In this document: positions 10,980-32,490 of the stretch, piece by piece
Layout of the letters: each line of letters opens with the position of its first letter
How positions within the stretch are numbered: position 1 is the stretch's first letter
Source: an uncultured Geobacter sp.
GTDB taxonomy: Bacteria > Desulfobacterota > Desulfuromonadia > Geobacterales > DSM-12255
NCBI GenBank assembly: GCA_937871715.1
Contig: CALMOE010000106.1
Coordinates: 1 to 35,240, forward strand
Direction of reading: 5' to 3'
Length of the DNA: 35,240 nucleotides
The notes under the pieces: generated by a model
The model's input: the letters and a program-made list of their open reading frames with translations, nothing else
What the model was told of the DNA's origin: nothing
The model's database searches: none
Program-made: the position numbers and the translations under genes

Positions 10980-12053
10980 TCAGGTGGAGATAAAGTCAAG
11001 CAGATAGCGTTTGCGGACAATTTGCAGGAAACAGTCGATCCCCTTAAGGGCGGTCCTGAACTGCTCCCTTTCCTTAGCCGGCATGCATCTGGGGTCCACA
11101 TGGTTGGATGGTGGAGTCCTGGCGGCAATTTCCTGCAGCTGCGACTGGACACGAAGTCTGACCAGAAAAGAGAAAGCCGCCTCGATTCTCTTCAGATCGC
11201 CGGCGGAGATCATCCCCAGCTCCCCCAGGAGAGAAAGCTTGTCCCAGGTATTCCCACCGACGAAGCCTGCCTCGAGTGCCATGAGAGTTGAGCCCAGGGT
11301 TACGGCGAAGATGCCGGACCTCTTGACGTCGACCTTCCCCCGCTGCTCTCCCCTTCGCTCGACCCGGATACGACGGAAAAAGGTGAGCGGCGACGGGAAG
11401 CGCGTCGCATGGCGTGCCAGGTTGGGGAAGAAGTGTGGGGTGAGCCAGACGGCGCTGCGGATATGGTCGCGCAGCTCCTTGCATAGCCCATCGTCGCCGT
11501 GCAGGGGGCTGAGATCCTGTAAGAGGCAGAAGTCGAGAATGTTTTCAGGGGTAGGGGCTATTATCCACTCTTCGACGAGCTGCTTCCATTCGCTGACGCT
11601 GTGGCACCAGCGGGGGTTGCTGGCCATGACGTTGCCAGGGCAACGGGGAACGCCGATTGCGTCGAGCGAATCGACCAGGCGAGTGGCAAAACGGTTGACC
11701 TCGATCAGCTTTTCCGCCGGGAAGTCGTCCGGGTAGACGATGGCGCTGTCCTGGTCTGTGCGCAGGGTCTGCTCTCCCCGCCCTTCACTGCCGAGGGTGA
11801 GGTATGTGGCCCCATCGGGCAGGCAGATCCCCTCATTGATTTCCAGCAGGGCGATGAGTCGCCGGGAGATGGTGTAGTTGACCTTGGCGATCATCTGCAC
11901 GATGCTTTTGGCATCGACTGGCACGGTAATGATGCACCCTACCGTGTCGAGCATCTTTATGCCGAGCTCCTTCAGAACCTCGATGGATTTGGCGGCCTCT
12001 ATCTCGCGATAAAGCTGGAGAGGCGTGATAATCTCATTGTCGTTGACGGGCAT
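10980..12053 (-). CDS. DUF294 nucleotidyltransferase with intact active site
   Basis: This 357-residue protein has a GlnD-like nucleotidyltransferase domain (PF03445-type) followed by the helical DUF294 C-terminal domain. The active-site motif is complete: G88-S89 in TLGSEGRGEQT, then D100 and D102 in RTDQDSAIVY for metal binding. The C-terminal half includes DLSPLHGD and RRGEQRGKVDVKRSG. Related proteins often carry N-terminal CBS or cyclic-nucleotide domains; this one has only a short helical N-terminus. The family is predicted to transfer a nucleotide onto a protein or small molecule, but its substrate is unknown to me. It ends the cluster led by the symporter genes and lies 33 bp after the symporter-kinase. 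A TGAGG ribosome-binding site precedes the ATG. Confidence 0.85.
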   Translation of the reverse strand: MPVNDNEIITPLQLYREIEAAKSIEVLKELGIKMLDTVGCIITVPVDAKSIVQMIAKVNYTISRRLIALLEINEGICLPDGATYLTLGSEGRGEQTLRTDQDSAIVYPDDFPAEKLIEVNRFATRLVDSLDAIGVPRCPGNVMASNPRWCHSVSEWKQLVEEWIIAPTPENILDFCLLQDLSPLHGDDGLCKELRDHIRSAVWLTPHFFPNLARHATRFPSPLTFFRRIRVERRGEQRGKVDVKRSGIFAVTLGSTLMALEAGFVGGNTWDKLSLLGELGMISAGDLKRIEAAFSFLVRLRVQSQLQEIAARTPPSNHVDPRCMPAKEREQFRTALKGIDCFLQIVRKRYLLDFIST

Positions 12054-12086: not shown

Positions 12087-15000
12087 TCAACTCTGCTGAA
12101 TGCCGCCGTCAATCCCTTCGGCAAAGGGGACGGTGAAGGAGAATACCGCTCCGGCCCCCAGTTCGCTTTCGACCCATATCTTGCCGCCGAGTTTCTCCAC
12201 GATCTCCCTGGAGATGGTCAGGCCCAGTCCGGTGCCGAGGGGATGGGACTTCTGGGGATCGCGCACCTGGTGGAAGCGGTCGAAAACCTGCTCCAACCGG
12301 TCTGGCGGGATGCCGGGTCCTTCGTCCGTCACGCTTATCAGGGCGAACATCCCCTCTCTTCTGCCGTTGATATGCACCTTCCCCCCTTCGGGTGAGAACT
12401 TTACCGCATTGGTGAGGAGGTTCGTCAGTACCTGGTGGAGCCAGTCCGCGTCAGCATAAACGGGGGGGAGGCCGCTTTCGATCGTGCTCTCCACCAAGAT
12501 CCCCTTCTCCACCAGAATGGGGTGGGTGGTGCCGAGCGCCCTGGCAAATATCGGTTCCAGCTCCAGAGGTTCGGAGTGCAGCTCCATGCGGCCCGCCTCG
12601 ATCTTCGAGAGATCGAGCAGGTCGTTGATCATCCGGGTCAGCCGCTCCGCCTCGCTGTGGATGATGCCGACGAATTTCCTCCGTTTGTCCGCGTCGTCAA
12701 CCTCGTAGCGAAGCAGGATCTCGGAAAATGACTGGATGGAGGTCAGGGGGGTGCGCAGTTCGTGACTCACTGTGGAGAGGAAATCGCTCTTGAGACGATC
12801 CAGCTCCAGCAGGCGGGCATTGGCCTTCTCCAGTTCGGCCGTGCGCCGGGCCACCTTCTCCTCCATGGCATGGCTGTATGCCTGGACTTCGGCGTAGAGC
12901 TGAGCATTGACCGCCGCCATGGCGAGCTGGTTGGCCAGGGCGGCGAAAAGCCCGACAAACTCTTCGGTGAAGTGCATGGGGCCGCGGGTCGCATAGGCGG
13001 TGAGTACGCCGATCACCCGTCCCTCGTAGGTCATGGGGGCGTGGATGAAGGCGCTGACCGGCACGTCCTTGACCAGTCGGGAAAACTGCAGCGGCTTGTC
13101 GATCTCCCGGGTATCCCCCACAACCACCGGCTTGGCATCGAGGAAGCAGAGGCCGAAGTAGGTCTCCCTGGAGGGTACCATGGCGGAGCCCTCCACGAAA
13201 TCGGCGGTTAGCCCGACATGGCTGCGGATCCTCAGGATGCCGTCGTCGTTCTGCAGCCGCACCGCCAGGTGCTCGAAGCCGAACTCCCGTTGGATCAGCA
13301 GGAGCACCTCCTGGATGAGCGTGTCGATATCCAGGCTTCTCGAAAGGGCGTGGGATGCCTCGTGGAGGACCACCAGCTCCCGCAGCCGCCGTTCCAGGGC
13401 ATCCCGGCTTTCCGCCAGGGTCAGGGAGACCCCGCCGAAGATGTCCAGGATCTCCACGGCCCGGTCCCTGGGCCAGGCGAGGGTGCTGTTGATGATCATC
13501 CTCGCCGACGGTGCGCCGATGGCGCTGGCCAGGCAGCGCTCGGTAGTTTCGAGCAGCAGCTGGGGGGATGAGCGTTCCGGAAGGGCTCCCAGCACATCAT
13601 GTGCCATTCTGGCGCCGACGAATCGCGCCAGAAGCTCTTCCAGGTCGGCCCTGGTGGCCCATGCGGCCGGGAGTTCGGTACGGCTGGATTCCTCCTTCGG
13701 GGGGGGGGAGAGCAGGCTGAAGGTGATGAAGGCCCCCAGGTTGAACACCAGGGACCAGATCAGGGCATGGGTCCAGGTGTCGAAGCCATGCAGCCCGAAG
13801 AGCGCCCTGGGGCGGAGCAGCTCGACCCCCCACGGCCCGTGGGTCAGGAGCGATGCGTCTATCCAGCCGGAATCTACGAAGCTGGGGACGAGCAGGGTAT
13901 AGGTCCATACGCCGAAGCCTGCAACCAGTCCTGCCAGCGCGCCGGTCCGGGTCCCCCCTTTCCAGTAGAGGCCGAGAAGAACGGCGGGGGCAAACTGGAA
14001 CACGGCGGAGAAGGAGAGCAGGCCGGTGGCGACCAGGGTGTGGGACTCGCCGATCCACCTGTTGAAGCCGTAGCCGAGCAGCACCACGCCGAAGATGACG
14101 GCCCGCTTGGTGTAGAGTAGCGGGCGGGAGATGTCCACCCCCCCAGCGCGGAACTCCGGGAAGACGCTCCCCACTAGGGCGACCCCGTAATGGTGAAGAA
14201 TCATGGTAGCAAGGGCGACCGCCTCGACGATGACCATGCTGGTAGCGGCGGAGAACCCCCCCAGGTAGGCGAGAAACGCCAGGCCGGTATGCCCCCTGGA
14301 TAGTGGCAGGGAGATCATGAAGAAGTCCGGGCTGAGGTTTCCTCCGTAAAGGCGCCCGACCAGGGCCACCGGGAGCACGAGGAGGTTGATGAGCAGCAGG
14401 TAGGCCGGAAAGGCCCATGTCGTTGTCAAGAGGTGCCTCTCCCGCACGTTTTCGACGGCAAGCATATGGAACTGGCGGGGGAGGAGGACCACGGCCGATG
14501 CGGAGAGCACGCTCAGCGCTGCCCAGGCGGAGAGGGATGTTCCCGACCCCTCGCCGAGCAGGAAGAGGCGCGACAGGTTCTGGTCCGCCATTGCCCGCTC
14601 GAACACCTCGAACAGCCCGCCGCCAATGCCAAAGGTGATGTAGAGGCCGATCACCAGGAAGGCGCCGAGTTTCACCGCGCTCTCGAAGGCGATCGCCGCG
14701 ACCATCCCCTCGTGCCGCTCGGTGGCGACCAGGCTCCTGGCACCGAACAGCCCGGCAAAGATCGACAGCCCCATGGCGGCCCAGAAGGACGCATCGTCGA
14801 AAATACCAGATGCCGCGGCTCTCCCGGTGAGCAGGTTGAAGGTGTAGCCGACCGCCTTTAGCTGGAGCCCTATGTAGGGGGTGATGCCGACCACCATCAG
14901 GGTAGTGGCGAGGGCACCCACTGCCCACCCCTTGCCGTACATGACTTCGAGCAGGTCGGGGAGGCTGGTGACACCTTCGGCCCGGCAGTAGGAGACGAGG

Positions 15001-15266
15001 CGTTTCAACAGGGAGGGTGCCAGGAGGAAAATGAGGGTCGGGCCAATATAGATCGGAAGAAATCCAAGGCCAGTCGATGCCGCCAGGCCGACGCTGCCGT
15101 AATAGGTCCAGGAGGTACAGTAGACCGCCAGGGAAAAACTGTACACCCATGGGTTGTCCACCGGGCTGCGCCCCATCTCCCTCGCCTTGTCACTGGCGTA
15201 AGCGATGGCGAACAGGCCGAGGAGATAGACGAAGCCGAGAAAGGCGACCCAGAAGGTATTGCTCAC
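12087..15266 (-). CDS. Sodium:solute symporter-histidine kinase fusion (CbrA/CrbS/MxtR type) with GAF domain
   Basis: In this 1059-residue sensor kinase, the first ~520 residues form a multi-pass membrane domain of the sodium:solute symporter family. A GAF-like domain follows (about 640-790), then a short coiled coil (about 800-825) and the kinase core. The phosphoacceptor is H835 (VSHELRTPL), the N box is around N953 (NLLTNAVKF), and the G boxes are DEGPGIP near 981 and GTGLGLT near 1011. Relatives (CbrA, CrbS, MxtR) sense amino acids or acetate and phosphorylate a DNA-binding regulator. No such regulator is adjacent here, only a free receiver at 18255-18626. Its ATG overlaps the end of the small membrane protein gene by 4 bp, so translation is coupled. 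Confidence 0.92.
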   Translation of the reverse strand: MSNTFWVAFLGFVYLLGLFAIAYASDKAREMGRSPVDNPWVYSFSLAVYCTSWTYYGSVGLAASTGLGFLPIYIGPTLIFLLAPSLLKRLVSYCRAEGVTSLPDLLEVMYGKGWAVGALATTLMVVGITPYIGLQLKAVGYTFNLLTGRAAASGIFDDASFWAAMGLSIFAGLFGARSLVATERHEGMVAAIAFESAVKLGAFLVIGLYITFGIGGGLFEVFERAMADQNLSRLFLLGEGSGTSLSAWAALSVLSASAVVLLPRQFHMLAVENVRERHLLTTTWAFPAYLLLINLLVLPVALVGRLYGGNLSPDFFMISLPLSRGHTGLAFLAYLGGFSAATSMVIVEAVALATMILHHYGVALVGSVFPEFRAGGVDISRPLLYTKRAVIFGVVLLGYGFNRWIGESHTLVATGLLSFSAVFQFAPAVLLGLYWKGGTRTGALAGLVAGFGVWTYTLLVPSFVDSGWIDASLLTHGPWGVELLRPRALFGLHGFDTWTHALIWSLVFNLGAFITFSLLSPPPKEESSRTELPAAWATRADLEELLARFVGARMAHDVLGALPERSSPQLLLETTERCLASAIGAPSARMIINSTLAWPRDRAVEILDIFGGVSLTLAESRDALERRLRELVVLHEASHALSRSLDIDTLIQEVLLLIQREFGFEHLAVRLQNDDGILRIRSHVGLTADFVEGSAMVPSRETYFGLCFLDAKPVVVGDTREIDKPLQFSRLVKDVPVSAFIHAPMTYEGRVIGVLTAYATRGPMHFTEEFVGLFAALANQLAMAAVNAQLYAEVQAYSHAMEEKVARRTAELEKANARLLELDRLKSDFLSTVSHELRTPLTSIQSFSEILLRYEVDDADKRRKFVGIIHSEAERLTRMINDLLDLSKIEAGRMELHSEPLELEPIFARALGTTHPILVEKGILVESTIESGLPPVYADADWLHQVLTNLLTNAVKFSPEGGKVHINGRREGMFALISVTDEGPGIPPDRLEQVFDRFHQVRDPQKSHPLGTGLGLTISREIVEKLGGKIWVESELGAGAVFSFTVPFAEGIDGGIQQS

Positions 15267-15454
15267 GGTTCATTCCTCCGGGTGAGCAGCCAGCTGGCCA
15301 GCACCAGCACCAACCAGACCATGAACAGATAGAAGGGGAGGGTCGGTATGCCCAGCAGGCTGCCCGGCTGGTTGAATGCCCCAAGCAGAGGGGAGTAGAG
15401 GGCCACTAGCCCCAGGGAGAAGAGAGCGGCAAGTCGGCGCGAGCTTGGATTCAT
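15263..15454 (-). CDS. Small two-helix membrane protein paired with the symporter-kinase
   Basis: This is a 63-residue protein with two hydrophobic segments (about 7-27 and 38-56) and a basic C-terminus ending RRNEP. Its stop overlaps the start of the symporter-kinase gene in ATGA. The layout mirrors the DUF4212 small subunit that precedes the true symporter in the same cluster, so I infer a subunit-like role, although sequence similarity is slight. I use ATG 15454, which has GGAG eight bases upstream, rather than the GTG nine codons earlier. The exact family is not recognised. Confidence 0.75.
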   Translation of the reverse strand: MNPSSRRLAALFSLGLVALYSPLLGAFNQPGSLLGIPTLPFYLFMVWLVLVLASWLLTRRNEP

Positions 15455-15525: not shown

Positions 15526-18255
15526 TTAAAATTTCGACGTCTGCCAGCGCAGGAGCAGATGCTGATCGCAGAAGGACTTTGCCTCTGCAAGGGTCCTGAC
15601 CCCACGCCCCGGCAGCAGTATCATGAGTCCGAGGAAGATCTGCGCCGCTGCGCGGGCATCTCCCAGGGAGCTGTGCCGCCCCTCGATGGTGATCCCCATC
15701 CGCTCTGCAATGGCATCCAGGCTGTGCCCCTCGATCTCCTTGTGAAGGGCATAGGAGAGGAAAATGGTGTCGAGGACCGGGTTGTCGATCGGGGGGAGCC
15801 CGGTCTCGGCTGCGGCCATGTCCAGGCACTGCTTGTCGAATGCCGCGTTGTGGGCCACCAGTATGGAGTTCCCCAAGTATTCGACAAACTGGGGATATAC
15901 TTCGCTCATGGCCGGGGCATCTGCCACCATCCGGTCATCGATCCCGTGGATTTCCGTCGACTCTGGGGGTATTGGCCTCCCCGGGTTTACCAGGGTGTTG
16001 AAGATGTCGCTGTTCTGAATCCGCCCCCTTTGGATGCGTATCGCGCTGATGCTGACGACCCTGTCCCCATGGGAAAGCTGCAGCCCGGTGGTCTCGGTGT
16101 CGACAACCACGTAATCCAGATCCGCCAGCTCTGCCTGGAGCAGATCTTCCCGCTCCAGAACCGGCCTCGGCAGAAACAGGTCGAAGTTGTAAAATTCCGG
16201 CTCCCCCTCGATCAACCCCACTGCACAGTTTGATTCCGCAGCGGCGGTCGCCTGAAGCAGGGCCAACCGGACCTCCATCGACTCTCCCGAGGAGCGGGTC
16301 CAGAGCTCTCCATGGTTTCTGCGCACCGCCTCTCCCAGGGGGATCGGCTCTTCCCCGGCAGACACGAGTTCAAGTGATTCCAGTTCGTTTGGGTCTCCGG
16401 CAAAGGGACCACTGACCCGGAAGGTCGTCACCACGGCCCCGTCCTCCACCTTCAGGTTTGCGCCAATCCCTATCTGGCCGGCACCTCTCTGCTCAAGCCA
16501 GTGAAGGGTGCATCTCAAGGAGGCCACCCAGGAGAAAGGCTCCACCAGCACAGCGGGAATCGGCTGGTCGCTGCCGATCTCGATGGAGATTCCAGGAAGC
16601 GAACTCACCGCTTCCTCAAGAAGTTCCCTGGGATTGGAGGGGACGGCGGGCCAGCGCGACGTCCGGGCACTGCTTGCGGCCTCCTCAATGGCCGTCAGCC
16701 GTACGCTCAGTCGGTCCATCTCCTCTGCCAGCGCAGACAGAAACTCCCGTTGTTTCTCAGCCGACATCTGCTGATGGCGCTGCAAGGTTTCGATCAGCGC
16801 ATGGGAGGTAGCCACCGGTCCCCTCAGGAGAAGGGGCATCTCCAGCAGGGTCTCCTCGAACCGCGTGTCTTCCCCGGAGAGAGCGTTCAGATTCCTGAAG
16901 ACCAGGAGAAATCCGGCCCTTTCCCCGCCTGGGCCGGGGATGACCGACAGGGAGCCTTTCAGGAGCTTTCCGTCCCTGAGGGGGAAAATCACCTCTTCAA
17001 CAGCCTCCCGCCCCGGCTCCCATCCCCGGCGAAGCCGGTCCATGTGGAAACCGAGACGCTCACCGGGAAAGATGCGTGACAGGGGGGATCCTATGCCGGA
17101 ACTGTATCCCCGCCCAAGGATGATCCGGGCACGGGGGTTCATCAGTATCGTTTCTGCGGCCTCGTTGGCCACGATCACGCCATCGACCATGGTACGGAGC
17201 ACGGTCGCCAGGCGATTACGTTCCTCCTGCAGGGTCATGGTAGCATCGCGCACGCGCCCTTCCAGTTCATTGTACGCCTTGCCCAGGTTCTCGGCCATGA
17301 GGTTGAACTCGATGGCCAGCTCTTTGATTTCATCCCCGGCGTCTATCTTGATGCGGTGATCCAGGTTGATGCGGGAGATTATCTCGGCACCACGGGTTAT
17401 CTCCAGGATGGGGCGCATGTACTGATCCGCCATCCACCAGGCCATGGTGGCGACCAGGATGACGAAGAGGATGGTGAACAGGGCAACCTGGCGGCTAACC
17501 ATATATAAATGCCCGAACACCTGGGAATCCGGTTGGACCACGGCGAGAAACCAGCCCTTCGGAACTGTGCCCCCCGGGGGGGCCACGGCAGTGACTCCGG
17601 CTAAATAGGTCGCGTTGCCTGATTTGAAGGTTGTCCAACCGGGTTCCAGCTCTTCAGGGGGGGGGAGTGGCGTTGCCTGGCCCCCCGCCAGGCGCTCACC
17701 CCTGGCAGTGAACAGCACCACTTCCCCTGTCTTCTCCTTGCCGGGCTGCTCAATGGCCCATCTGACCCCTTCCGGGATAAAGTATATCGCCAGAGTACCG
17801 ACTGGGCTACCGCTGCTGCCCGCTACTGCCACCCGGTAGGCAAGCTCCTTTCCCGTTGTCGATACAAAGGGGGAGCCATTGCCGGGCGGGACCGAGCCGC
17901 CTCCGGGAACCAGGTCGATTCTCACTGTGCCGGGAACGGATTTCCTCGCCGAAGAAATGAGCTGTTCCGGAAACGGTCCCGACTCCGCCAGGTATGAGAC
18001 CACCTCGGGAGAGGCCGCCAGCCCGGTGGCCGCTTGCTGAACGAGGTGCAGTTCTCCGCGCAGTTGATCCGTCAGCTGCCTCGCTTCATGGGCGAGCTGG
18101 TTGCCGCGGATCCCCTCGATATCGCTGCGGACCATGAAGAAGAGGGACGCCAGCGCAGCCAACAGGGGGAGAACCGCCAGGCCGGTGAGGGAGACGATCA
18201 TCCGGTGACGCAGGCTTCTTTTCTTGGGGGATGAACCGGCCTGTCTGGCAATCAT
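15526..18255 (-). CDS. Membrane sensor (periplasmic-HAMP-PAS-degenerate histidine kinase) fused to a DEDDh 3'-5' exonuclease
   Basis: This 909-residue fusion is numbered here from the ATG. Transmembrane helices at about 20-42 and 256-274 flank a ~210-residue periplasmic sensor domain. HAMP (about 276-330), a coiled coil and a PAS-like domain (about 345-455) follow. A kinase-like dimerisation region (about 460-530) reads PLLLRGPVA where active kinases have HELRTPL, so the phosphoacceptor His is missing, and the ATPase-like region (about 540-670) lacks clear N and G boxes. The C-terminus is a DnaQ/RNase T-type exonuclease with all catalytic residues: D719 and E721 (DTETTG), D807 (HNAAFD), and H861 and D866 (RHSSLGDAR). 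The nuclease should face the cytoplasm. The ATG overlaps the stop of the receiver gene (TGATG), and a GTG one codon earlier is the alternative start. DnaQ-like nucleases and DUF294 proteins are recurrent neighbours of acetate-type symporters in other proteobacteria. Confidence 0.88.
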   Translation of the reverse strand: MIARQAGSSPKKRSLRHRMIVSLTGLAVLPLLAALASLFFMVRSDIEGIRGNQLAHEARQLTDQLRGELHLVQQAATGLAASPEVVSYLAESGPFPEQLISSARKSVPGTVRIDLVPGGGSVPPGNGSPFVSTTGKELAYRVAVAGSSGSPVGTLAIYFIPEGVRWAIEQPGKEKTGEVVLFTARGERLAGGQATPLPPPEELEPGWTTFKSGNATYLAGVTAVAPPGGTVPKGWFLAVVQPDSQVFGHLYMVSRQVALFTILFVILVATMAWWMADQYMRPILEITRGAEIISRINLDHRIKIDAGDEIKELAIEFNLMAENLGKAYNELEGRVRDATMTLQEERNRLATVLRTMVDGVIVANEAAETILMNPRARIILGRGYSSGIGSPLSRIFPGERLGFHMDRLRRGWEPGREAVEEVIFPLRDGKLLKGSLSVIPGPGGERAGFLLVFRNLNALSGEDTRFEETLLEMPLLLRGPVATSHALIETLQRHQQMSAEKQREFLSALAEEMDRLSVRLTAIEEAASSARTSRWPAVPSNPRELLEEAVSSLPGISIEIGSDQPIPAVLVEPFSWVASLRCTLHWLEQRGAGQIGIGANLKVEDGAVVTTFRVSGPFAGDPNELESLELVSAGEEPIPLGEAVRRNHGELWTRSSGESMEVRLALLQATAAAESNCAVGLIEGEPEFYNFDLFLPRPVLEREDLLQAELADLDYVVVDTETTGLQLSHGDRVVSISAIRIQRGRIQNSDIFNTLVNPGRPIPPESTEIHGIDDRMVADAPAMSEVYPQFVEYLGNSILVAHNAAFDKQCLDMAAAETGLPPIDNPVLDTIFLSYALHKEIEGHSLDAIAERMGITIEGRHSSLGDARAAAQIFLGLMILLPGRGVRTLAEAKSFCDQHLLLRWQTSKF

Positions 18256-18626
18256 CACGGTTCTATCATTTCGCGGATCTTTTCCAGCAGTTCCGCGGCA
18301 TTGAAAGGTTTGGTAATGTATTCATCTGCACCTACCTCCAGACCTTTCTTTCGTTCGAGGGCCTGCCCCTTGGCGGTGAGCATGACCACCTTTGTCCCGG
18401 CAAGCTCATCGCACCCCTTGATGATTCTGCATACCTCGTAGCCATCCTTCCTGGGCATGCTTATATCCAGCAGAATCAGATCCGGCCGGATGCGCCCGGC
18501 CACTTCCAGGGCCTCTTCCCCGTCCCGTGCCGTATGGACTTCATACCCCTCCATGTCCAGGATAAACTCAATTGACATCAGGATGTTTGGTTCGTCGTCC
18601 ACGGCAAGAATCTTTTTCTTCCCCAT
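18255..18626 (-). CDS. Stand-alone response regulator receiver (CheY-like)
   Basis: This is a single receiver domain of 123 residues without an output domain. Acidic residues D10 and D11, phosphoacceptor D54 (LLDISMP), T84 and K106 (TKPF) are all present, so it should be phosphorylated. Its likely kinase is the symporter-kinase (H835) in the same cluster. The degenerate kinase encoded directly downstream cannot donate phosphate but could receive this protein as a partner. The stop overlaps the start of the exonuclease gene, indicating translational coupling and probably functional pairing. GGAG lies eight bases before the ATG. Confidence 0.93.
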   Translation of the reverse strand: MGKKKILAVDDEPNILMSIEFILDMEGYEVHTARDGEEALEVAGRIRPDLILLDISMPRKDGYEVCRIIKGCDELAGTKVVMLTAKGQALERKKGLEVGADEYITKPFNAAELLEKIREMIEP

Positions 18627-18659: not shown

Positions 18660-19943
18660 TTACTGGCTGACTTCAGCTATCTGCTGATAAAGAAGCCGCT
18701 GCAGAGTGGTCAGGTCCTCCAGCCCGGACTTCAGGCGCTCCCTGGAGACGTGGCCGAGAACGTCAGGATTGAGGAAATACTCCTCCCCCTCTCCGCCGTG
18801 GGCGATCTCCAGCTTGATCTGGCAGCGGACGAATTCGTTCAGGGCGAGCAGAAGGCGGTCGGCTATGGCAACCCCCAACCCTCCCCCTGCCAAAAGGGCC
18901 CTGATCCTTGCAGCAGTTGATGTCTCCCTGATGCCGGATAGGATGGCCAGCATCCTTACCGAGGCGACCAGGGGCCTGGTGGCCATCTCCTCCATTGAGA
19001 ATTGGCCACGGTGACTGCCGCTTCTTGCGGTGCGGAAGCGGCCGAACATCCCCAGGGCGACTGGCATGGTCGCCACCCTGCGGGCAAGCTGGCGGAACTC
19101 CTCCCTCTGACTCTCCCAGGCAAGGAAGGCGGCGGACATCTCCATGACACGATCGCTCAGATCCTTGTCCCCCCATATGGGGCGAAGGTCGGCGATCAAC
19201 TCTATGCCCCTGTCATAGGGGGTGGCCATGGCAGGATCGAATTTACCCCCCCCGCCACTCTGCCCCGGGACCATGGGGCCGATGGAGTCAAGCAACTGCT
19301 CCCGCCAATTGCCGATGGAGCCGTGCCAGAATATGGTGCCGCCACCTCTCAGCCCTGGCTGAGTCGGGATGCCGCAGTCGGCGAGGATCGCCATGAGCCT
19401 GATGGCGAGGCGGTGGAAATACTGATGACTCTGCGCGTCGCTCTCTTCGTGTGCGAGGATGATGCAATTCTGCCCACCGAGGGTGCTCTCCATTCGCCCG
19501 AGAGAGTCGGCAGCCAGCAGGCACCAGGAGCCCTGCGGCGCCGGCTCCCCCTCCTGGCGAAGGTGCTCCACGGCAATGGTGCAGGAGGTGATGAGCAGGG
19601 TTTCGAGGGTGGTGCTGAGGAACTCCTGGAAAGTCCCTGCGGAAGAGCGTGTGGCGAAATGCCGTCTGGAGGTGTCGCACAGTCTCGCGTAAAGTGGGGG
19701 GAGTTCATGGGCAAGGCGTGCTTCCGACAGTTTTGCCATGGTGGCGTTGAACTCCGCGGCCATGCTGCTGTCCAGGCTCTCTTCACTGAGTAGTTCATCC
19801 CTGATCCTGCGCAGCAGGGCAAGGCTCTCCCCGGTCTCAAGCTCCGCCATCCTGAAGGCAAGGCGCTTCTGTATACTCTCCAGCAGGCGTCTGCTCCCTC
19901 TGGATGACAACGTCTTTTCCGTATCTTGGCTGACCGGGATCAT
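18660..19943 (-). CDS. DUF294-like protein with degenerate nucleotidyltransferase site
   Basis: This 427-residue protein aligns with the intact DUF294 protein of the same cluster. Its ~135-residue helical N-terminal region is followed by a nucleotidyltransferase-like segment reading DSLGRMESTLGGQN, and then by a C-terminal domain with DLRPIWGD (compare DLSPLHGD) and a GSHRGQFSMEEMATRP segment. The Gly of the GS motif is D146, and the two metal-binding aspartates are replaced by Q158 and C160. Transferase activity is therefore unlikely, and it may act as a scaffold or regulatory paralogue. Similarity to DUF294 is read by eye. It lies 32 bp after the symporter gene and 33 bp before the receiver gene. 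Confidence 0.75.
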   Translation of the reverse strand: MIPVSQDTEKTLSSRGSRRLLESIQKRLAFRMAELETGESLALLRRIRDELLSEESLDSSMAAEFNATMAKLSEARLAHELPPLYARLCDTSRRHFATRSSAGTFQEFLSTTLETLLITSCTIAVEHLRQEGEPAPQGSWCLLAADSLGRMESTLGGQNCIILAHEESDAQSHQYFHRLAIRLMAILADCGIPTQPGLRGGGTIFWHGSIGNWREQLLDSIGPMVPGQSGGGGKFDPAMATPYDRGIELIADLRPIWGDKDLSDRVMEMSAAFLAWESQREEFRQLARRVATMPVALGMFGRFRTARSGSHRGQFSMEEMATRPLVASVRMLAILSGIRETSTAARIRALLAGGGLGVAIADRLLLALNEFVRCQIKLEIAHGGEGEEYFLNPDVLGHVSRERLKSGLEDLTTLQRLLYQQIAEVSQ

Positions 19944-19975: not shown

Positions 19976-21505
19976 CTACTGCAGGTTTCCGTGAACCTCA
20001 TCGGCGAGGAAGCGCCTTATCTCCATTGAAGGTGGTTCACTGAACCTGGAGACGACGATCATTATGGCAAGAACCAGAGGGGCGCCGCAGAGGGCGGAGG
20101 CAGTCAGGGGGAAGAGGGTGTTCACCAGGGGTAGCACTCCGCCAAGGAGGGGTTGGGCAAATGTGACGAGAACACCGGTGAGCATTCCGCAGATTACCCC
20201 CATCCTGGTGGTGCCGCTCCACCATATGCCGAGGAGGAAGGCCGGGAAGATGGTGTTGCCGGCCAGGGCGAAGGCGACTGCCGCTATCTCCGCTATCAGC
20301 CCGGGGGGCTTGAGTGAGCCCAGGAGTACCAGGGCTGCCAGCAATAGGGTTGCCCCCTTGGCCAGCTTCATCCTGCGCCCCTCGCTGGCCCTGGGATTCA
20401 CCAGGCGGTAGTAGATGTCGTAGGAGATGGAAGCCGCGCCTGTCATGAGGAGCCCGGCAACGTTGAAAAAAGCGGCGCTGACCGCACCCGCGGCCAGCAT
20501 CCCCACCAGCCACTGGGGGAGGCCGCCGAGGAGGGCGGTACGCACCACCACGTTGTCGGCCATGGCGCGGGCCGCCTCCGGGGTGAGGTTGATGCCGCCT
20601 CGGGCTTCGATGAGCCTGCCGAAGACGGCGTAGGCCGGAGCCGACCAGTAGATCAGGGCGATGAAGAACAGCCCCCAGACCACGCTCCAGCGGGCGTCGC
20701 GCACGTTGGAGACGGTGTAGAAGCGGGAGAGGACATGGGGGAGGCCGGCTGTGCCGAGCATCAGGGTGAAGCAGAGGGCGGTCCAGTGGAAGGGGCCTGA
20801 GTGAACAAAGGGGGAGGCCATGTTGATGTTGAATTCCCTTGAGAGGTCGGCAATGGCCGTGCCGTAGCCGAACTGGGGCATTATCCAGAAGTAGCCGAGA
20901 CGCTTTGCGAGGAACATCAGTGGGAGGATGAAGGTGACGATGAGGACCGAGTACTGCAACTTCTGGCTGCGGGCAACGCCGAGGCTGCCCGAGATGACGA
21001 TGTACCCCATGAGGATGCAGGCGCCGAGGATCACCCCGCTGGAGTAGTCGATGCCGATCAGCCAGGCGAAGAGGATGCCGATCCCCTTGAACTGGGCGAT
21101 GCTGTAGATGAGTGTTATGGCTATGGAGATGGCGGCCGAGATCAGCCGGGCTGCGTTGGATTCGTAACGTTCGCCGATGAAGTCCGGTGCGGTGTACTTG
21201 CCGAAACGGCGGAGCTGGCCGGCGAGGAGCACCAGGAGGAGGACGTAACCCCCGGTCCAGCCGATGACGTAGGCAAGGGCCGAGTAGCCGTAGAGGTAGA
21301 TCAGGCCGGCTATGCCGAGGAAACTGGCCGCGCTCATCCAGTTGCTTGCAATGGCAGCGCCGCCGCCGATCCTGCCGGTATAGCGCCCGGAGACGCCGTA
21401 CTCCGAGCTCTCCCTGGTCTTGTAGAGCAGCCCGGCGATGACGAAGAGGAGGAGCACGCCGAAGACGAAGAGCATGGGAACCAGTTTCTGCCCGGTGTCA
21501 GTCAT
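19976..21505 (-). CDS. Sodium:solute symporter (acetate permease ActP-like)
   Basis: This is a 509-residue integral membrane protein of the sodium:solute symporter family with about 13 hydrophobic segments. Segments such as SNWMSAASFLGIAGLIY near residue 55 and GTAGLPHVLSRFYTV near 255 are typical of ActP-type monocarboxylate (acetate, pyruvate) permeases, so import of acetate or a similar short acid with Na+ or H+ is likely. Geobacter relies on acetate, which fits. The gene starts 8 bp inside the end of the DUF4212 gene, and the two products are expected to work together. Confidence 0.9.
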   Translation of the reverse strand: MTDTGQKLVPMLFVFGVLLLFVIAGLLYKTRESSEYGVSGRYTGRIGGGAAIASNWMSAASFLGIAGLIYLYGYSALAYVIGWTGGYVLLLVLLAGQLRRFGKYTAPDFIGERYESNAARLISAAISIAITLIYSIAQFKGIGILFAWLIGIDYSSGVILGACILMGYIVISGSLGVARSQKLQYSVLIVTFILPLMFLAKRLGYFWIMPQFGYGTAIADLSREFNINMASPFVHSGPFHWTALCFTLMLGTAGLPHVLSRFYTVSNVRDARWSVVWGLFFIALIYWSAPAYAVFGRLIEARGGINLTPEAARAMADNVVVRTALLGGLPQWLVGMLAAGAVSAAFFNVAGLLMTGAASISYDIYYRLVNPRASEGRRMKLAKGATLLLAALVLLGSLKPPGLIAEIAAVAFALAGNTIFPAFLLGIWWSGTTRMGVICGMLTGVLVTFAQPLLGGVLPLVNTLFPLTASALCGAPLVLAIMIVVSRFSEPPSMEIRRFLADEVHGNLQ

Positions 21506-21821
21506 AAAAACCGTCCCTTCGCCTGCTCTGCCGTTCGCTGAGCCGGTCGATCCCCAGGTTGAACAGGGCGCAGATTATGATGAACCATAGTGGGAGCATC
21601 TGGGCGGTGAACCAGAAGTGGAAGGGGAGGCCAAAGAAGTTGAACTCGGTCAGCCAGCTCCCCTTGTCATATACGTTGACTAGCGCCAGGAGCAGCTGGA
21701 AACCGAAGGTGACCACCCCCCAGCCGAGGAGGGAGGCAAGCATGATGGTCACCTCCCCCTTCATCTGCTCTCCCTTGGGGCGGAGCAGGTTTACCCGGCA
21801 GCTTTCTGGCTCTTTTTGCAT
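21498..21821 (-). CDS. DUF4212 small subunit of the sodium/substrate symporter
   Basis: This 107-residue protein has two membrane helices (about 27-47 and 72-92) separated by a segment containing FFGLPFHFWFTAQ, typical of DUF4212 proteins that accompany SSS-family symporters. It most likely stabilises or tunes the permease. AAGGAGG lies eight bases before the ATG, the best ribosome-binding site of the cluster, and the gene overlaps the permease gene. It is the first gene of the transporter/signalling cluster. I found no clear promoter in the 63-bp gap to truD. Confidence 0.88.
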   Translation of the reverse strand: MQKEPESCRVNLLRPKGEQMKGEVTIMLASLLGWGVVTFGFQLLLALVNVYDKGSWLTEFNFFGLPFHFWFTAQMLPLWFIIICALFNLGIDRLSERQSRRRDGFYD

Positions 21822-26755: not shown

Positions 26756-28636
26756 TCACTTCAAGATTGCTCGCTCTATTTCATGGATAAGGGGTGAAAG
26801 CCCGAAAATAAGCGGCTTATCGTCCTGATGCGGGGCCGAAACCAGCCGCAGGTTGCCGTGTGGTTTTTCGTCCAGAACGAGGAGTAGGGGGGTGCCGGCC
26901 AGCTGCGGAACTTTCTTCAGGGCGGAGATGATCGTGTCGAGCTCCTCCTCTGCGTAGGTGCCTATGATTACGGCATTCGGGCCGAATTCGGTGCAGGAGA
27001 TGGGGAGCCTTGTGTTGTTGCCAATGAGGGTGACCTGATACCCTTCGATACCGAGAAGCATCTGCAGTATACGTGACTCTTCGCTGTTTTTCGAAATGAT
27101 GGCGATCCTTTTCCGCCCCATCTTCAGCGGCTCCATGGCCTGCAGCAGCTGGTTGCGCTCGAACGGCTTCCATATGTAGCCGTTGAAGGCGATGCTGATA
27201 TCCTCCTGCGGTTCGACGTGGAAGTGGGCGAGGAAAAACGGGGTTCCCTCATCCTGCACGGCGGAGGCCAGGGTTTCCACCCCGGCTCTGTCGTCGGCCG
27301 TCTCCCCGATGATCAGATCAATGGGGGAATATTTGATCAGGTCGCAGGCCTTGTCATAGCTGACGGCGCCATAGGTACTGTAGCCCACGTTTTCCAGGGA
27401 TTTTCTCAGGCACATCCTCTTCACCGTGTTCCTCACCACAACTAGGATCGGCCTGACCTCACCGGGCGAATGTCTGCTCTTCTCTCTAAGGGGGATTCCC
27501 CTGTCATGGAGTACTCCGTTGAAAAGAGGGATGGTGAAGCTGAAGGTGCTCCCTTCGCCTATGCGGCTCTCCACCCTGATGGTGCCGCCATGGATTTCGA
27601 CGATCTTCTTGCAGATGGAAAGTCCCAGCCCGCTGCCGGCTGGCCGTTCCGGCACGTTGTCCAGGACCCTGTAGAATTCGTCGAAAATCTTCTCCTCTTC
27701 ACCGGGGAATATCCCCTCTCCGGTGTCCCCCACGAAGAACTCTGCGAATTCAGTCCCCTTCCTAAAGCCGAGGGTGATGCTCCCCCGGCTGGTGAACTTG
27801 ACCGCATTGCTCAGCAGGTTGATGATCACCTGGGTGATCTGCCCCCTGTCGGCCCTGACGGCGACAGGCTCAGGCGGAATATCCGACGTGAGCTCCAACC
27901 CCCTTTTCTCGGCGGCTGGTTGCATGACCTTCATCCCGGCGGTGATGAGCTCGGCGGCATCAACCATGCCGATGGCCGGCTCATGCTTGCCAGTCTCGAT
28001 CTTGATGAGATCGAGCAGGTCATTGACCAGATTTGTCAGGCGCAGGCTTTCGCTCTGGATAACCTCCATGAATTCCCTCTCCGTCTCCCTGTCCAGGTCG
28101 CCGTAGCTGAGGAGAATCTCGGAGTAGGAGCGGATACCGGTGAGGGGGGTCCTGATCTCGTGGGCTATCTTGGCGAGAAAAGCGGTCTTCTCGCTGTCCA
28201 GGCGCTGAAGCCTGGCGTGCGCCTGGGAAAGGGCGTCCAGGGTGGCCTGCAGGTTCATGCTTCTGCGGCTAAGCTCGTTGCTCAGCCCCTGGAAATTTGT
28301 CTCCGCAAGGCGGAAGCGGCTCTCCTCTCCGGCAATGAAAGAGGCCACTTTCGCGGCGCACCAGCTGGTGAGGAGGTATGCTGTCAACTCGGCCGTGACT
28401 GGAAGGAGGTCCCCTGCCCCACTGGCATCCCCCATGAGTGCCATCAGGGCATAAAAGGCTGAGAATGACGCTCCGACTAGGAGTATGGCTGGGGGGGGGA
28501 GGCGGAGGGAGGTCAGGGCCATGAGCGGGAAGAAGGCAAACCTGAACTGGCTCCCTGCTCCGCCGCTGTAAAGGCAGATGGAGAGCAGGGGGATTAGCCA
28601 CACCGAGGGGAGAAATTTCAGGATGCCTTCTTTCAT
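26756..28636 (-). CDS. Membrane histidine kinase with two degenerate C-terminal receivers
   Basis: In this 626-residue protein, the N-terminal 100 residues contain several short membrane helices with almost no periplasmic part, so it may sense membrane or intracellular cues. A coiled coil leads to a complete kinase core: H159 (IAHEIRTPL), N277 (NLLSNAVKF), DTGEGI near 304 and GSGLGLS near 335. Two receiver-like domains follow (about 396-505 and 509-626). Neither has the acidic pocket or phosphoacceptor Asp; the first keeps the lysine K490 (WKPF). They are probably pseudo-receivers used for binding. The ATG overlaps the stop of the receiver gene (ATGA), which makes that receiver the likely phosphorylation target. 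Confidence 0.9.
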   Translation of the reverse strand: MKEGILKFLPSVWLIPLLSICLYSGGAGSQFRFAFFPLMALTSLRLPPPAILLVGASFSAFYALMALMGDASGAGDLLPVTAELTAYLLTSWCAAKVASFIAGEESRFRLAETNFQGLSNELSRRSMNLQATLDALSQAHARLQRLDSEKTAFLAKIAHEIRTPLTGIRSYSEILLSYGDLDRETEREFMEVIQSESLRLTNLVNDLLDLIKIETGKHEPAIGMVDAAELITAGMKVMQPAAEKRGLELTSDIPPEPVAVRADRGQITQVIINLLSNAVKFTSRGSITLGFRKGTEFAEFFVGDTGEGIFPGEEEKIFDEFYRVLDNVPERPAGSGLGLSICKKIVEIHGGTIRVESRIGEGSTFSFTIPLFNGVLHDRGIPLREKSRHSPGEVRPILVVVRNTVKRMCLRKSLENVGYSTYGAVSYDKACDLIKYSPIDLIIGETADDRAGVETLASAVQDEGTPFFLAHFHVEPQEDISIAFNGYIWKPFERNQLLQAMEPLKMGRKRIAIISKNSEESRILQMLLGIEGYQVTLIGNNTRLPISCTEFGPNAVIIGTYAEEELDTIISALKKVPQLAGTPLLLVLDEKPHGNLRLVSAPHQDDKPLIFGLSPLIHEIERAILK

Positions 28637-29013
28637 CCTCTATCCGATGCGAGCAGTTGGTGTACCCTCTCCAGCACCTCCCTAGGGCTGAAGGGTTTTG
28701 TCATGAACTCGTCGGCCCCGGCTTTCATGCAGTTCTCCCGGTCGATCTCCTGCCCCATGCAGGTGAGGATGATGATGTGGGGAGAGCGTGAGCCGTTGGC
28801 CGATTTGAGTTGTCTGCAGAGGTGGAAACCGTCCATTTTCGGCATGATGAGGTCGAGGAAGACAACCTTTGGGGCAATCTCCCGGCATTTTGCCTCAGCC
28901 TCCTCGCCGTTCCGGGCTGTCTCGATGTCGTAACCCGCCTTGCTGAAGATAAAGCTGAGGGCGCGAACAATATGTGGTTCGTCGTCGACAACAAGAATAT
29001 CAGTTTCTCGCAT
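28633..29013 (-). CDS. Stand-alone response regulator receiver
   Basis: This is a 126-residue receiver domain without output. D10, D11, D54 (FLDLIMP), T84 and K106 (TKPF) form a complete phosphorylation site. It is the first gene of the long minus-strand run, overlaps the next gene (histidine kinase) by 4 bp and is most likely its substrate. It closely resembles in layout the other free receiver of the window (18255-18626), but the two differ in most surface positions. GAGG lies eight bases before the ATG. Confidence 0.93.
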   Translation of the reverse strand: MRETDILVVDDEPHIVRALSFIFSKAGYDIETARNGEEAEAKCREIAPKVVFLDLIMPKMDGFHLCRQLKSANGSRSPHIIILTCMGQEIDRENCMKAGADEFMTKPFSPREVLERVHQLLASDRG

Positions 29014-30639: not shown

Positions 30640-32490
30640 ATGGGGTACGAAGTAACCAACAAGCAACTTCTGAAATGGGTTGAGGAGATTGCGGCTCTCT
30701 GCAAGCCGGCCAATATCCACTGGTGCGACGGTTCACAGGAGGAGTACGACGGTCTCTGCAATCTTCTGGTGCAAAGCGGCACGTTCCGCAAGCTGAATCC
30801 GGAGAAAAGGCCCAACAGCTATCTCGCCTGGTCCGATCCGATCGACGTCGCCCGGGTGGAAGACCGTACCTTCATCTGCAGTCTCTCCAAGGATGATGCC
30901 GGCCCGACCAACAACTGGATGAACCCCAAGGAGATGAAGGAGAAGCTCAGCAAGCTCTTCAGCGGCTGCATGGAGGGGCGTACCATGTACGTCATCCCCT
31001 TCAGCATGGGCCCCCTGGGCTCCGACATCGCCAAGATCGGTGTGGAGATCTCCGACTCCCCCTACGTTGCAGTCAACATGCGCATCATGACCCGCATGGG
31101 GAAGCAGGTGCTGGACGTACTTGGTGACGGCGAGTTCATCCCCTGTATCCACTCCGTCGGTGCACCACTTGCCCCGGGGCAGCAGGATGTGGCCTGGCCG
31201 TGCAACAAGGAGAAGTACATTGTCCACTTCCCGGAGGAGCGGGCGATCTGGTCCTTCGGCTCCGGCTACGGCGGCAACGCCCTCCTCGGCAAGAAGTGCC
31301 TCGCCCTGCGCATCGCCTCCAAGATCGGCAAGGACGAGGGGTGGCTGGCCGAGCACATGCTCATCCTCGGCGTAGAGGCCCCGTCCGGCGAAAAGTCCTA
31401 CGTGGGTGCCGCCTTCCCCAGCGCCTGCGGCAAGACCAACTTCGCCATGCTCATCCCCCCCAAGAGCTTCCAGGACAAGGGGTGGAAGGTTACCACCATC
31501 GGCGACGACATAGCCTGGATCAAGCCCGGCGCCGACGGACAGGTCTACGCCATCAACCCCGAGTACGGCTACTTCGGCGTTGCCCCCGGCACCAACTACA
31601 AGACCAACCCCAATGCCATGATCTCCTGCGAGAAGAACTCCATCTTCACCAACGTGGCCTTGACCTCTGACGGCGACGTCTGGTGGGAGGGGATGGATGG
31701 TGAGCCCCCAGCAAGGCTGACCGATTGGCAGGGTAACGAATGGACCCCCGGCTGCGGCCGCCCTGCAGCCCACCCCAACGCCCGTTTCACCGCCCCGGCC
31801 TCCCAGTGCCCATGCATAGATCCCGACTGGGAGAATCCCAAAGGGGTGCCGATCAGCGCCTTCATCTTCGGCGGCCGTCGCAAGGATACCGTTCCACTGG
31901 TTTACCAGGCATTCAACTGGAATTTCGGCGTCTATCTGGCGGCGACCCTCGGTTCCGAGACAACCGCCGCGGCGGTTGGCGCCACCGGCAACGTGCGTCG
32001 CGACCCCTTTGCCATGCTCCCCTTCTGCGGCTATCACATGGCGGACTACTTCGGCCACTGGCTCCAGTTCGGCCGCTCCATCCCCCGCCCGCCGCGGATC
32101 TTCAGCGTCAACTGGTTCCTCAAGGATGACGACGGCAAGTTCGCCTGGCCCGGTTACGGCGAAAACATGCGTGTCCTCAAGTGGATCATCGATCGCGTAC
32201 AGGGTCATGCCGGGGCGGTCGAGTCCCCGCTGGGTTGGATGCCACGCTACCGGGACATGGAGTGGGATGGGCTCGACATCAGCAGGGAGAAATTCAACGA
32301 GCTCATGTCCGTTGACCGTGACGTCTGGCAGAACGAGGTCATCTCCCACGAGGAGCTGTTCGTCAAGATGTACGATCGTCTGCCGAAGGAGTTCCTCCAT
32401 ATGAGGGAGCTGATTCTCTCCAGCCTCTGGCGCTCTCCGGAGCACTGGGAACAGATCGGCGACGCCCATCCCGAGGGGTGGAACGAGTAA
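30640..32490 (+). CDS. pckG: Phosphoenolpyruvate carboxykinase (GTP)
   Basis: This 616-residue enzyme interconverts oxaloacetate and GTP with phosphoenolpyruvate, CO2 and GDP. It has the GTP-class features: the P-loop with reactive cysteine FPSACGKTN (C263, K265, T266), metal ligands near K219, H239 (AEHM) and D290 (GDDIAW), the substrate segment [11 protein letters not shown], and the late NWF segment ([12 protein letters not shown]) of the nucleotide site. The length matches the GTP class (~600 residues) and not the ~530-residue ATP class. In an acetate-using Geobacter it would serve gluconeogenesis from TCA intermediates. GGGGGAGG precedes the ATG by about nine bases, and a strong terminator follows. 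Confidence 0.96.

Follow-up and report, generated by a model that had tools for sequence, protein, structure and literature searches.

A widespread protein family joining a degenerate histidine-kinase core to a predicted DEDDh exonuclease, encoded in Geobacter beside a receiver-only regulator and an SLC5-type kinase

The window analyzed here, a stretch of 35,240 nucleotides from an uncultured Geobacter sp., contains a gene for a 909-aa protein in which a transmembrane (TM) helix, a variable periplasmic part, a second TM helix, a HAMP domain, a PAS domain, a degenerate histidine-kinase core, and a DEDDh exonuclease domain follow one another. This gene belongs to a cassette with the order receiver-only regulator, nuclease, CbrX-like micro-ORF, CbrA/CrbS-type SLC5 kinase, and DUF294, and the cassette is flanked by 2 DUF294 proteins, one encoded upstream (18660–19943) and the other downstream (10980–12053). 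The features of the locus are the following:

21498..21821, minus strand: DUF4212 small symporter subunit (profile match)
19976..21505, minus strand: VC_2705-family (ActP-like) sodium:solute symporter (TIGR03648, 1e-142)
18660..19943, minus strand: second DUF294 protein, with a degenerate metal-binding motif, GGQN (Pfam and motif)
18255..18626, minus strand: receiver-only response regulator, 123 aa, acceptor D54, in TGATG overlap with the nuclease gene
15526..18255, minus strand: sensor pseudokinase-exonuclease, whole gene, 909 aa, ATG at 18255 and stop at 15526
18130..18186, minus strand: transmembrane helix 1, residues 24–42 (hydropathy peak)
17506..18120, minus strand: periplasmic region, residues 46–250, variable, with about 15 residues left in 4 of 11 aligned close relatives
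17431..17487, minus strand: transmembrane helix 2, residues 257–275 (hydropathy peak)
17284..17418, minus strand: HAMP domain, residues 280–324 (Pfam PF00672, 7.5e-8)
16891..17217, minus strand: PAS domain, residues about 347–455 (weak Pfam score, under the curated cut-off; dN/dS 0.10)
16666..16863, minus strand: DHp-like region, residues 465–530, with the His replaced (HELRTP to LLLRGP)
16252..16638, minus strand: CA/GHKL-like region, residues 540–668, with the N, G1, and G2 boxes lost
16174..16194, minus strand: family signature FYNFDLF, ahead of the nuclease domain
15634..16110, minus strand: DEDDh exonuclease domain (RNase_T, Pfam), with D719, E721, D807, H861, and D866
15263..15454, minus strand: membrane micro-ORF, 63 aa, at the place of CbrX, in GTGA overlap with the kinase start
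12087..15266, minus strand: CbrA/CrbS-type kinase with an SLC5-like part, GAF, HisKA, and HATPase_c, all boxes intact
10980..12053, minus strand: DUF294 putative nucleotidyltransferase with an intact TDQD motif (Pfam and motif)

The sequence-only reading of this locus had proposed that a single polypeptide joins a sensor, HAMP, PAS, and a kinase-like region to a nuclease. This architecture was borne out by the 909-aa open reading frame on the minus strand, by the Pfam matches to HAMP and to RNase_T (PF00929, residues 716–874, 8e-36), and by the recurrence of the fusion. The PAS match is weak in the window protein, yet repeatable among homologues (Pfam), and the motif FYxFDL stands ahead of the nuclease domain in most family members. 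The full-length AlphaFold model has a mean pLDDT of 51, its usable parts being the periplasmic and CA-like regions only, and the CA/GHKL-like region has, at moderate model confidence, the beta-alpha order of a GHKL fold. A fusion produced by chance or by assembly was ruled out because the same fusion is present in dozens of independent genomes.

By its domain match and its 5 catalytic residues, the C-terminal domain is a DEDDh exonuclease domain. All 5 residues that had been recognized in the window protein (D719, E721, D807, H861, and D866) were confirmed there and found in each of the family members tested (67/67); the active site is complete and 3'-5' exonuclease activity is predicted. The closest solved sequences to this domain are proofreading-type PolC/DnaQ exonuclease domains, which likewise consist of a DEDDh catalytic domain with all 5 residues. 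The family nuclease differs from DnaQ/PolC in its fusion to a membrane region, HAMP, PAS, and a pseudokinase, and is separated from the DnaQ-like relatives in a nuclease-domain tree, in which the soluble and DnaQ-like rows are long-branched and their placement is unsure. In this tree, the window protein clusters with its Geobacteraceae relatives (support 99/94), the Paracoccus and Cupriavidus proteins form a second group, and the standalone Desulfuromonadia proteins form a third.

No HisKA or HATPase_c match was obtained with Pfam in the 909-aa protein, and a genome-wide HisKA scan returned 48 sites, the nuclease-fusion gene not being among them. When a family profile of the region ahead of the nuclease was compared by hhalign with 12 active kinases encoded in this genome, the two aligned over 211 columns with a probability of 97.7% and an E-value of 2e-12. 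As judged from this alignment, the kinase-like core is a true kinase homologue, related to the active enzymes by common descent. To score lost residues, we used the columns that are invariant among the 12 active kinases in a joint alignment. The H-box phosphoacceptor His was present in 0 of the 63 members with a kinase-like region, its column being occupied most often by Asp (21 members), Glu (18), and Gln (11), and by Leu in the window protein. Each of the 2 N-box Asn residues and the G1 Asp were also present in 0/63 members, and a Gly close to the end of the core is retained in 60/63. The loss of the phosphoacceptor claimed by the sequence-only reading was thus found across the family, and the alignment with histidine kinases that it had proposed as a check revealed the loss of the H-box His and of both N-box Asn, plus that of the G1 Asp. 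An intact phosphoacceptor elsewhere in the domain was considered and rejected: the H-box position is without His, and nearby His residues occur in single members only. With these residues missing family-wide, phosphorylation and ATP binding by the kinase-like core are improbable across the whole family, and phosphate can hardly be the signal carrier within the nuclease-fusion polypeptide itself. The kinase-like core is not a relic and is under purifying selection, because its dN/dS in the window's subfamily is 0.18 in the DHp-like and 0.22 in the CA-like region; the values for the PAS, nuclease, and periplasmic parts are 0.10, 0.11, and 0.43, respectively (rough Nei-Gojobori estimates, with synonymous sites near saturation in some pairs). 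A sequence search with the pseudokinase profile against solved structures gave no meaningful match.

Among 11 aligned close relatives, the window protein included, the stretch between the 2 membrane helices ranges from about 205 residues (window protein and L033) to about 15 residues (L006, L008, L009, and L010), and in several other lineages a short loop only stands in place of the periplasmic part. With its dN/dS of 0.43, this is the fastest-evolving part of the protein in the window's subfamily. The periplasmic sensor is dispensable, and periplasmic ligand sensing was rejected as a conserved function because the region is lost and its dN/dS is high. The proposal that this sensor provides the input is therefore not upheld.

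The fusion had also been regarded as unusual, but it is common in the class to which the window belongs and occurs in other groups. The family profile was matched at E <= 1e-40, mostly over the full model, by 131 of the 277 genomes of this class, some of these 131 containing soluble relatives only, and family matches were found in 22 of 297 sampled genomes from other classes of the phylum. The fusion is also present on alpha- and betaproteobacterial plasmids, and plasmid-borne family members were found in Paracoccus, Cupriavidus, Neorhizobium, and Marivivens. Shorter forms (479–562 aa and 485–487 aa) consist of a membrane part, a PAS-like part, and the nuclease, without the kinase-like core. 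In short homologues of this kind (L047–L052), the PAS region contains a cluster of the C-x2-H-x2-C-x2-C type (e.g., HCDQHDECIQC), which could be a metal-binding or redox site, and in 3 of these genomes (L047, L050, and L051) a pdxA-like gene, assigned by eye, immediately precedes the one for the short membrane-bound nuclease. Within a single family of the class, the fusion is directly adjoined by an acs-like gene and by another exonuclease, which is soluble and has about 240 aa (L136, 5200–5742; L137, 5413–5955; L148, 8468–9010). The neighbors of the standalone clade yielded no functional lead, those that are conserved (purC, a PpiD/SurA-like gene, and mreB, by eye) representing synteny only. 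A literature search for a nuclease-pseudokinase fusion, or for DUF294 with an exonuclease, found no description of a nuclease-pseudokinase fusion. The pseudokinase reader, the SLC5 kinase pathway, and the DEDDh nuclease are known parts, and we did not find their combination described; the fusion family is widespread and uncharacterised.

Within the cassette, the receiver gene's stop codon and the ATG of the nuclease gene overlap in the sequence TGATG. The 123-aa regulator is a receiver domain only, with no DNA-binding output domain detected by Pfam, unlike the cognate regulator of the CrbR type. The H, N, G1, and G2 boxes are retained in the window kinase, whose N-terminal part matches the SLC5-STAC structure of CbrA (10ED, E 8e-71). 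The upstream DUF294 protein, with its GGQN motif, looks catalytically dead. Loci of the window type have the order receiver, nuclease, SLC5 kinase, followed by DUF294 in most of those in which the contig is long enough, and the order receiver, nuclease, SLC5 kinase is also found in remote classes of the same phylum. In Paracoccus, P. denitrificans PD1222 among others, the order is DUF294, micro-ORF, CrbS-type kinase, receiver, and nuclease; Cupriavidus plasmids have a CrbS-type kinase, receiver, nuclease, DUF294, and acs; and in P. yeei the genes run acs, DUF485, symporter, DUF294, receiver, and nuclease. Symporter, DUF294, or acs genes lie nearby in several lineages. In 2 of the distant members of the phylum, L165 (3769–7702) and L166 (4796–8699), the receiver and nuclease genes are followed by a GAF kinase without the SLC5 part, and both triads adjoin cobalamin-type genes (by eye).

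A receiver gene lies directly upstream of 29 of the 63 members with a kinase-like region and of 0 of the 12 without it (Fisher P 0.002, kinship ignored, with manual assignment of 5 receivers that over-long ORFs had hidden from the automatic distance test and manual reclassing of one short member). Several deeply separated lineages have the receiver directly upstream, in most cases with a 4-base overlap with the nuclease gene. The acceptor Asp is kept in all receivers examined (27/27) and the other active-site residues in nearly all. The 34 members that have a kinase-like region and no adjacent receiver belong almost all to one clade, the largest, and for this reason the receiver would there be either unneeded or encoded elsewhere.

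Several known systems resemble parts of this arrangement. In Caulobacter crescentus DivL, a kinase fold without catalysis reads DivK~P, and PAS domains add phospho-specificity (PMC4211667). The fusion resembles DivL, which reads a single-domain receiver, in combining PAS with a histidine-kinase fold that lacks kinase activity: a kinase fold, a lost His, and a PAS domain ahead of it were all found here, the link to the receiver being one of gene adjacency. DivL differs in having Tyr at the His position, in acting on another kinase pathway, and in having no enzymatic output, whereas the fusion has lost the ATP-site residues too and its output would be a nuclease. The cassette kinase is of the same type as the SLC5-STAC kinases of CrbS/CrbR and CbrA/CbrB and has over its start a micro-ORF that is CbrX-like by position and length, just as the CbrX micro-ORF overlaps the start of CbrA (PMC13022988), but the regulators of those systems bind DNA, while the cassette receiver is without an output domain and lies beside a nuclease. 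A known relative, by gene neighborhood, is the P. putida RNase_T protein PP_0353, a target of MxtR/ErdR (= CrbS/CrbR) that forms an operon with the CBS-domain/nucleotidyltransferase-type PP_0354, whose deletion slows growth on pyruvate and for which mRNA degradation has been speculated by the authors of that study (PP_0353 in both cases; PMC9927547). Both systems include an RNase_T nuclease and a nucleotidyltransferase-type CBS-domain partner linked to an ActP-type symporter and a CrbS-type kinase; PP_0353 differs in being a transcriptional target of the two-component system and has not been described as a protein with a membrane sensor.

We tentatively suggest that the 909-aa protein may be the effector in a two-component pathway that deals with small organic acids of the acetate or pyruvate class. 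The SLC5 kinase would sense the transported substrate and phosphorylate the receiver, which, once phosphorylated, would dock on the DHp-like helices of the pseudokinase by analogy with DivK~P on DivL. The movement of the PAS and pseudokinase parts would then open or close the nuclease, possibly tuned via the membrane region, and the nuclease would trim nucleic acid close to the membrane, RNA being the likeliest substrate, thereby adjusting the uptake and use of organic acids post-transcriptionally. Because an intact SLC5-type kinase and a receiver that has all its phosphorylation residues flank the gene in a conserved cassette, phosphate transfer probably takes place one step upstream, with the pseudokinase reading its result. 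The earlier idea that the signal is not passed on as phosphate is thus supported within the polypeptide, where the core is dead, but a purely conformational route that is wholly phosphate-free is not supported with this kinase and receiver next to the gene. Small organic acids are suggested as the biological setting because genes for symporters, DUF294, and acs are repeatedly found next to the fusion and because deletion of PP_0353 slows growth on pyruvate. Linkage to DUF294 or symporter genes is also found without the kinase-like region and the receiver (L078, L152, L154, L168, L170, and L171), so that the core function of the nuclease would be independent of the proposed switch.

Alternatively, the pseudokinase could be a dimerization and spacing scaffold, with a signal of redox, metabolite, or membrane state going straight from HAMP/PAS to the nuclease, and with the receiver and SLC5 kinase as co-regulated neighbors that have other partners. 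The large Desulfuromonadia clade in which the fusion is found alone, with no adjoining receiver or kinase, is consistent with this, and so are a PAS domain as constrained as the nuclease (dN/dS 0.10 versus 0.11) and the short relatives that do without the kinase-like part entirely. We nevertheless find this explanation somewhat doubtful, since the directly upstream receiver, mostly with its 4-base overlap, occurs in several deeply separated lineages and never adjoins forms that lack the kinase-like part.

The remaining explanations give the neighbors or the nuclease a different role. DUF294 could write a nucleotidyl mark, carried by a transporter, an enzyme, or the 3' end of an RNA, and the DEDDh domain could erase it, with the pseudokinase setting the balance; we consider this improbable. 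In its favor, DUF294 proteins with an intact nucleotidyltransferase motif adjoin many architectures, both those that have the kinase-like part and those that lack it, but DUF294 was not found beside most of the standalone clade and, to our knowledge, no DEDDh enzyme removes nucleotides from protein, which counts against it. The operon of PP_0354 with the soluble nuclease PP_0353 and the predicted action of the related Pflu5625 by nucleotidylation (PMC5715377) agree with a writer and an eraser, yet deletions of PP_0353 and PP_0354 gave different phenotypes (PMC9927547). A reversible nucleotidylation cycle of DUF294 and nuclease, with an RNA end, an enzyme, or a transporter as its target and balanced by the two-component phosphate signal via the pseudokinase, seems quite improbable. 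Very unlikely, finally, is an ordinary exonuclease of DNA/RNA repair or turnover that is membrane-bound by chance and carries a decaying sensory relic: its nearest solved structures are indeed proofreading-type DnaQ/PolC domains, but purifying selection acts on the PAS, DHp-like, and CA-like regions (dN/dS 0.10–0.22), which are retained across classes and phyla, and the neighbors are transport and acetate genes, not repair genes.

The usual end point of a two-component system is DNA binding or a second-messenger enzyme. If the cassette ends in a nuclease that is read through a dead kinase, as in the two-component reading that we tentatively favor, carbon-source sensing would have a post-transcriptional (or nucleotide-based) output, and what the phosphate signal of a sensor switches may be a nuclease rather than a gene. 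The same reading offers a context for the pyruvate phenotype of PP_0353, which is so far unexplained. The idea is readily testable because this large family, spread over several classes, includes cultured model organisms, among them Paracoccus denitrificans PD1222, Cupriavidus necator, and Geobacter argillaceus. Elsewhere in the window, a second kinase gene (26756–28636, minus strand) is directly preceded by a gene for another receiver-only regulator (28633–29013, minus strand), and a gene on the plus strand (30640–32490) resembles, by eye only, a GTP-type phosphoenolpyruvate carboxykinase, which fits acetate-type growth.
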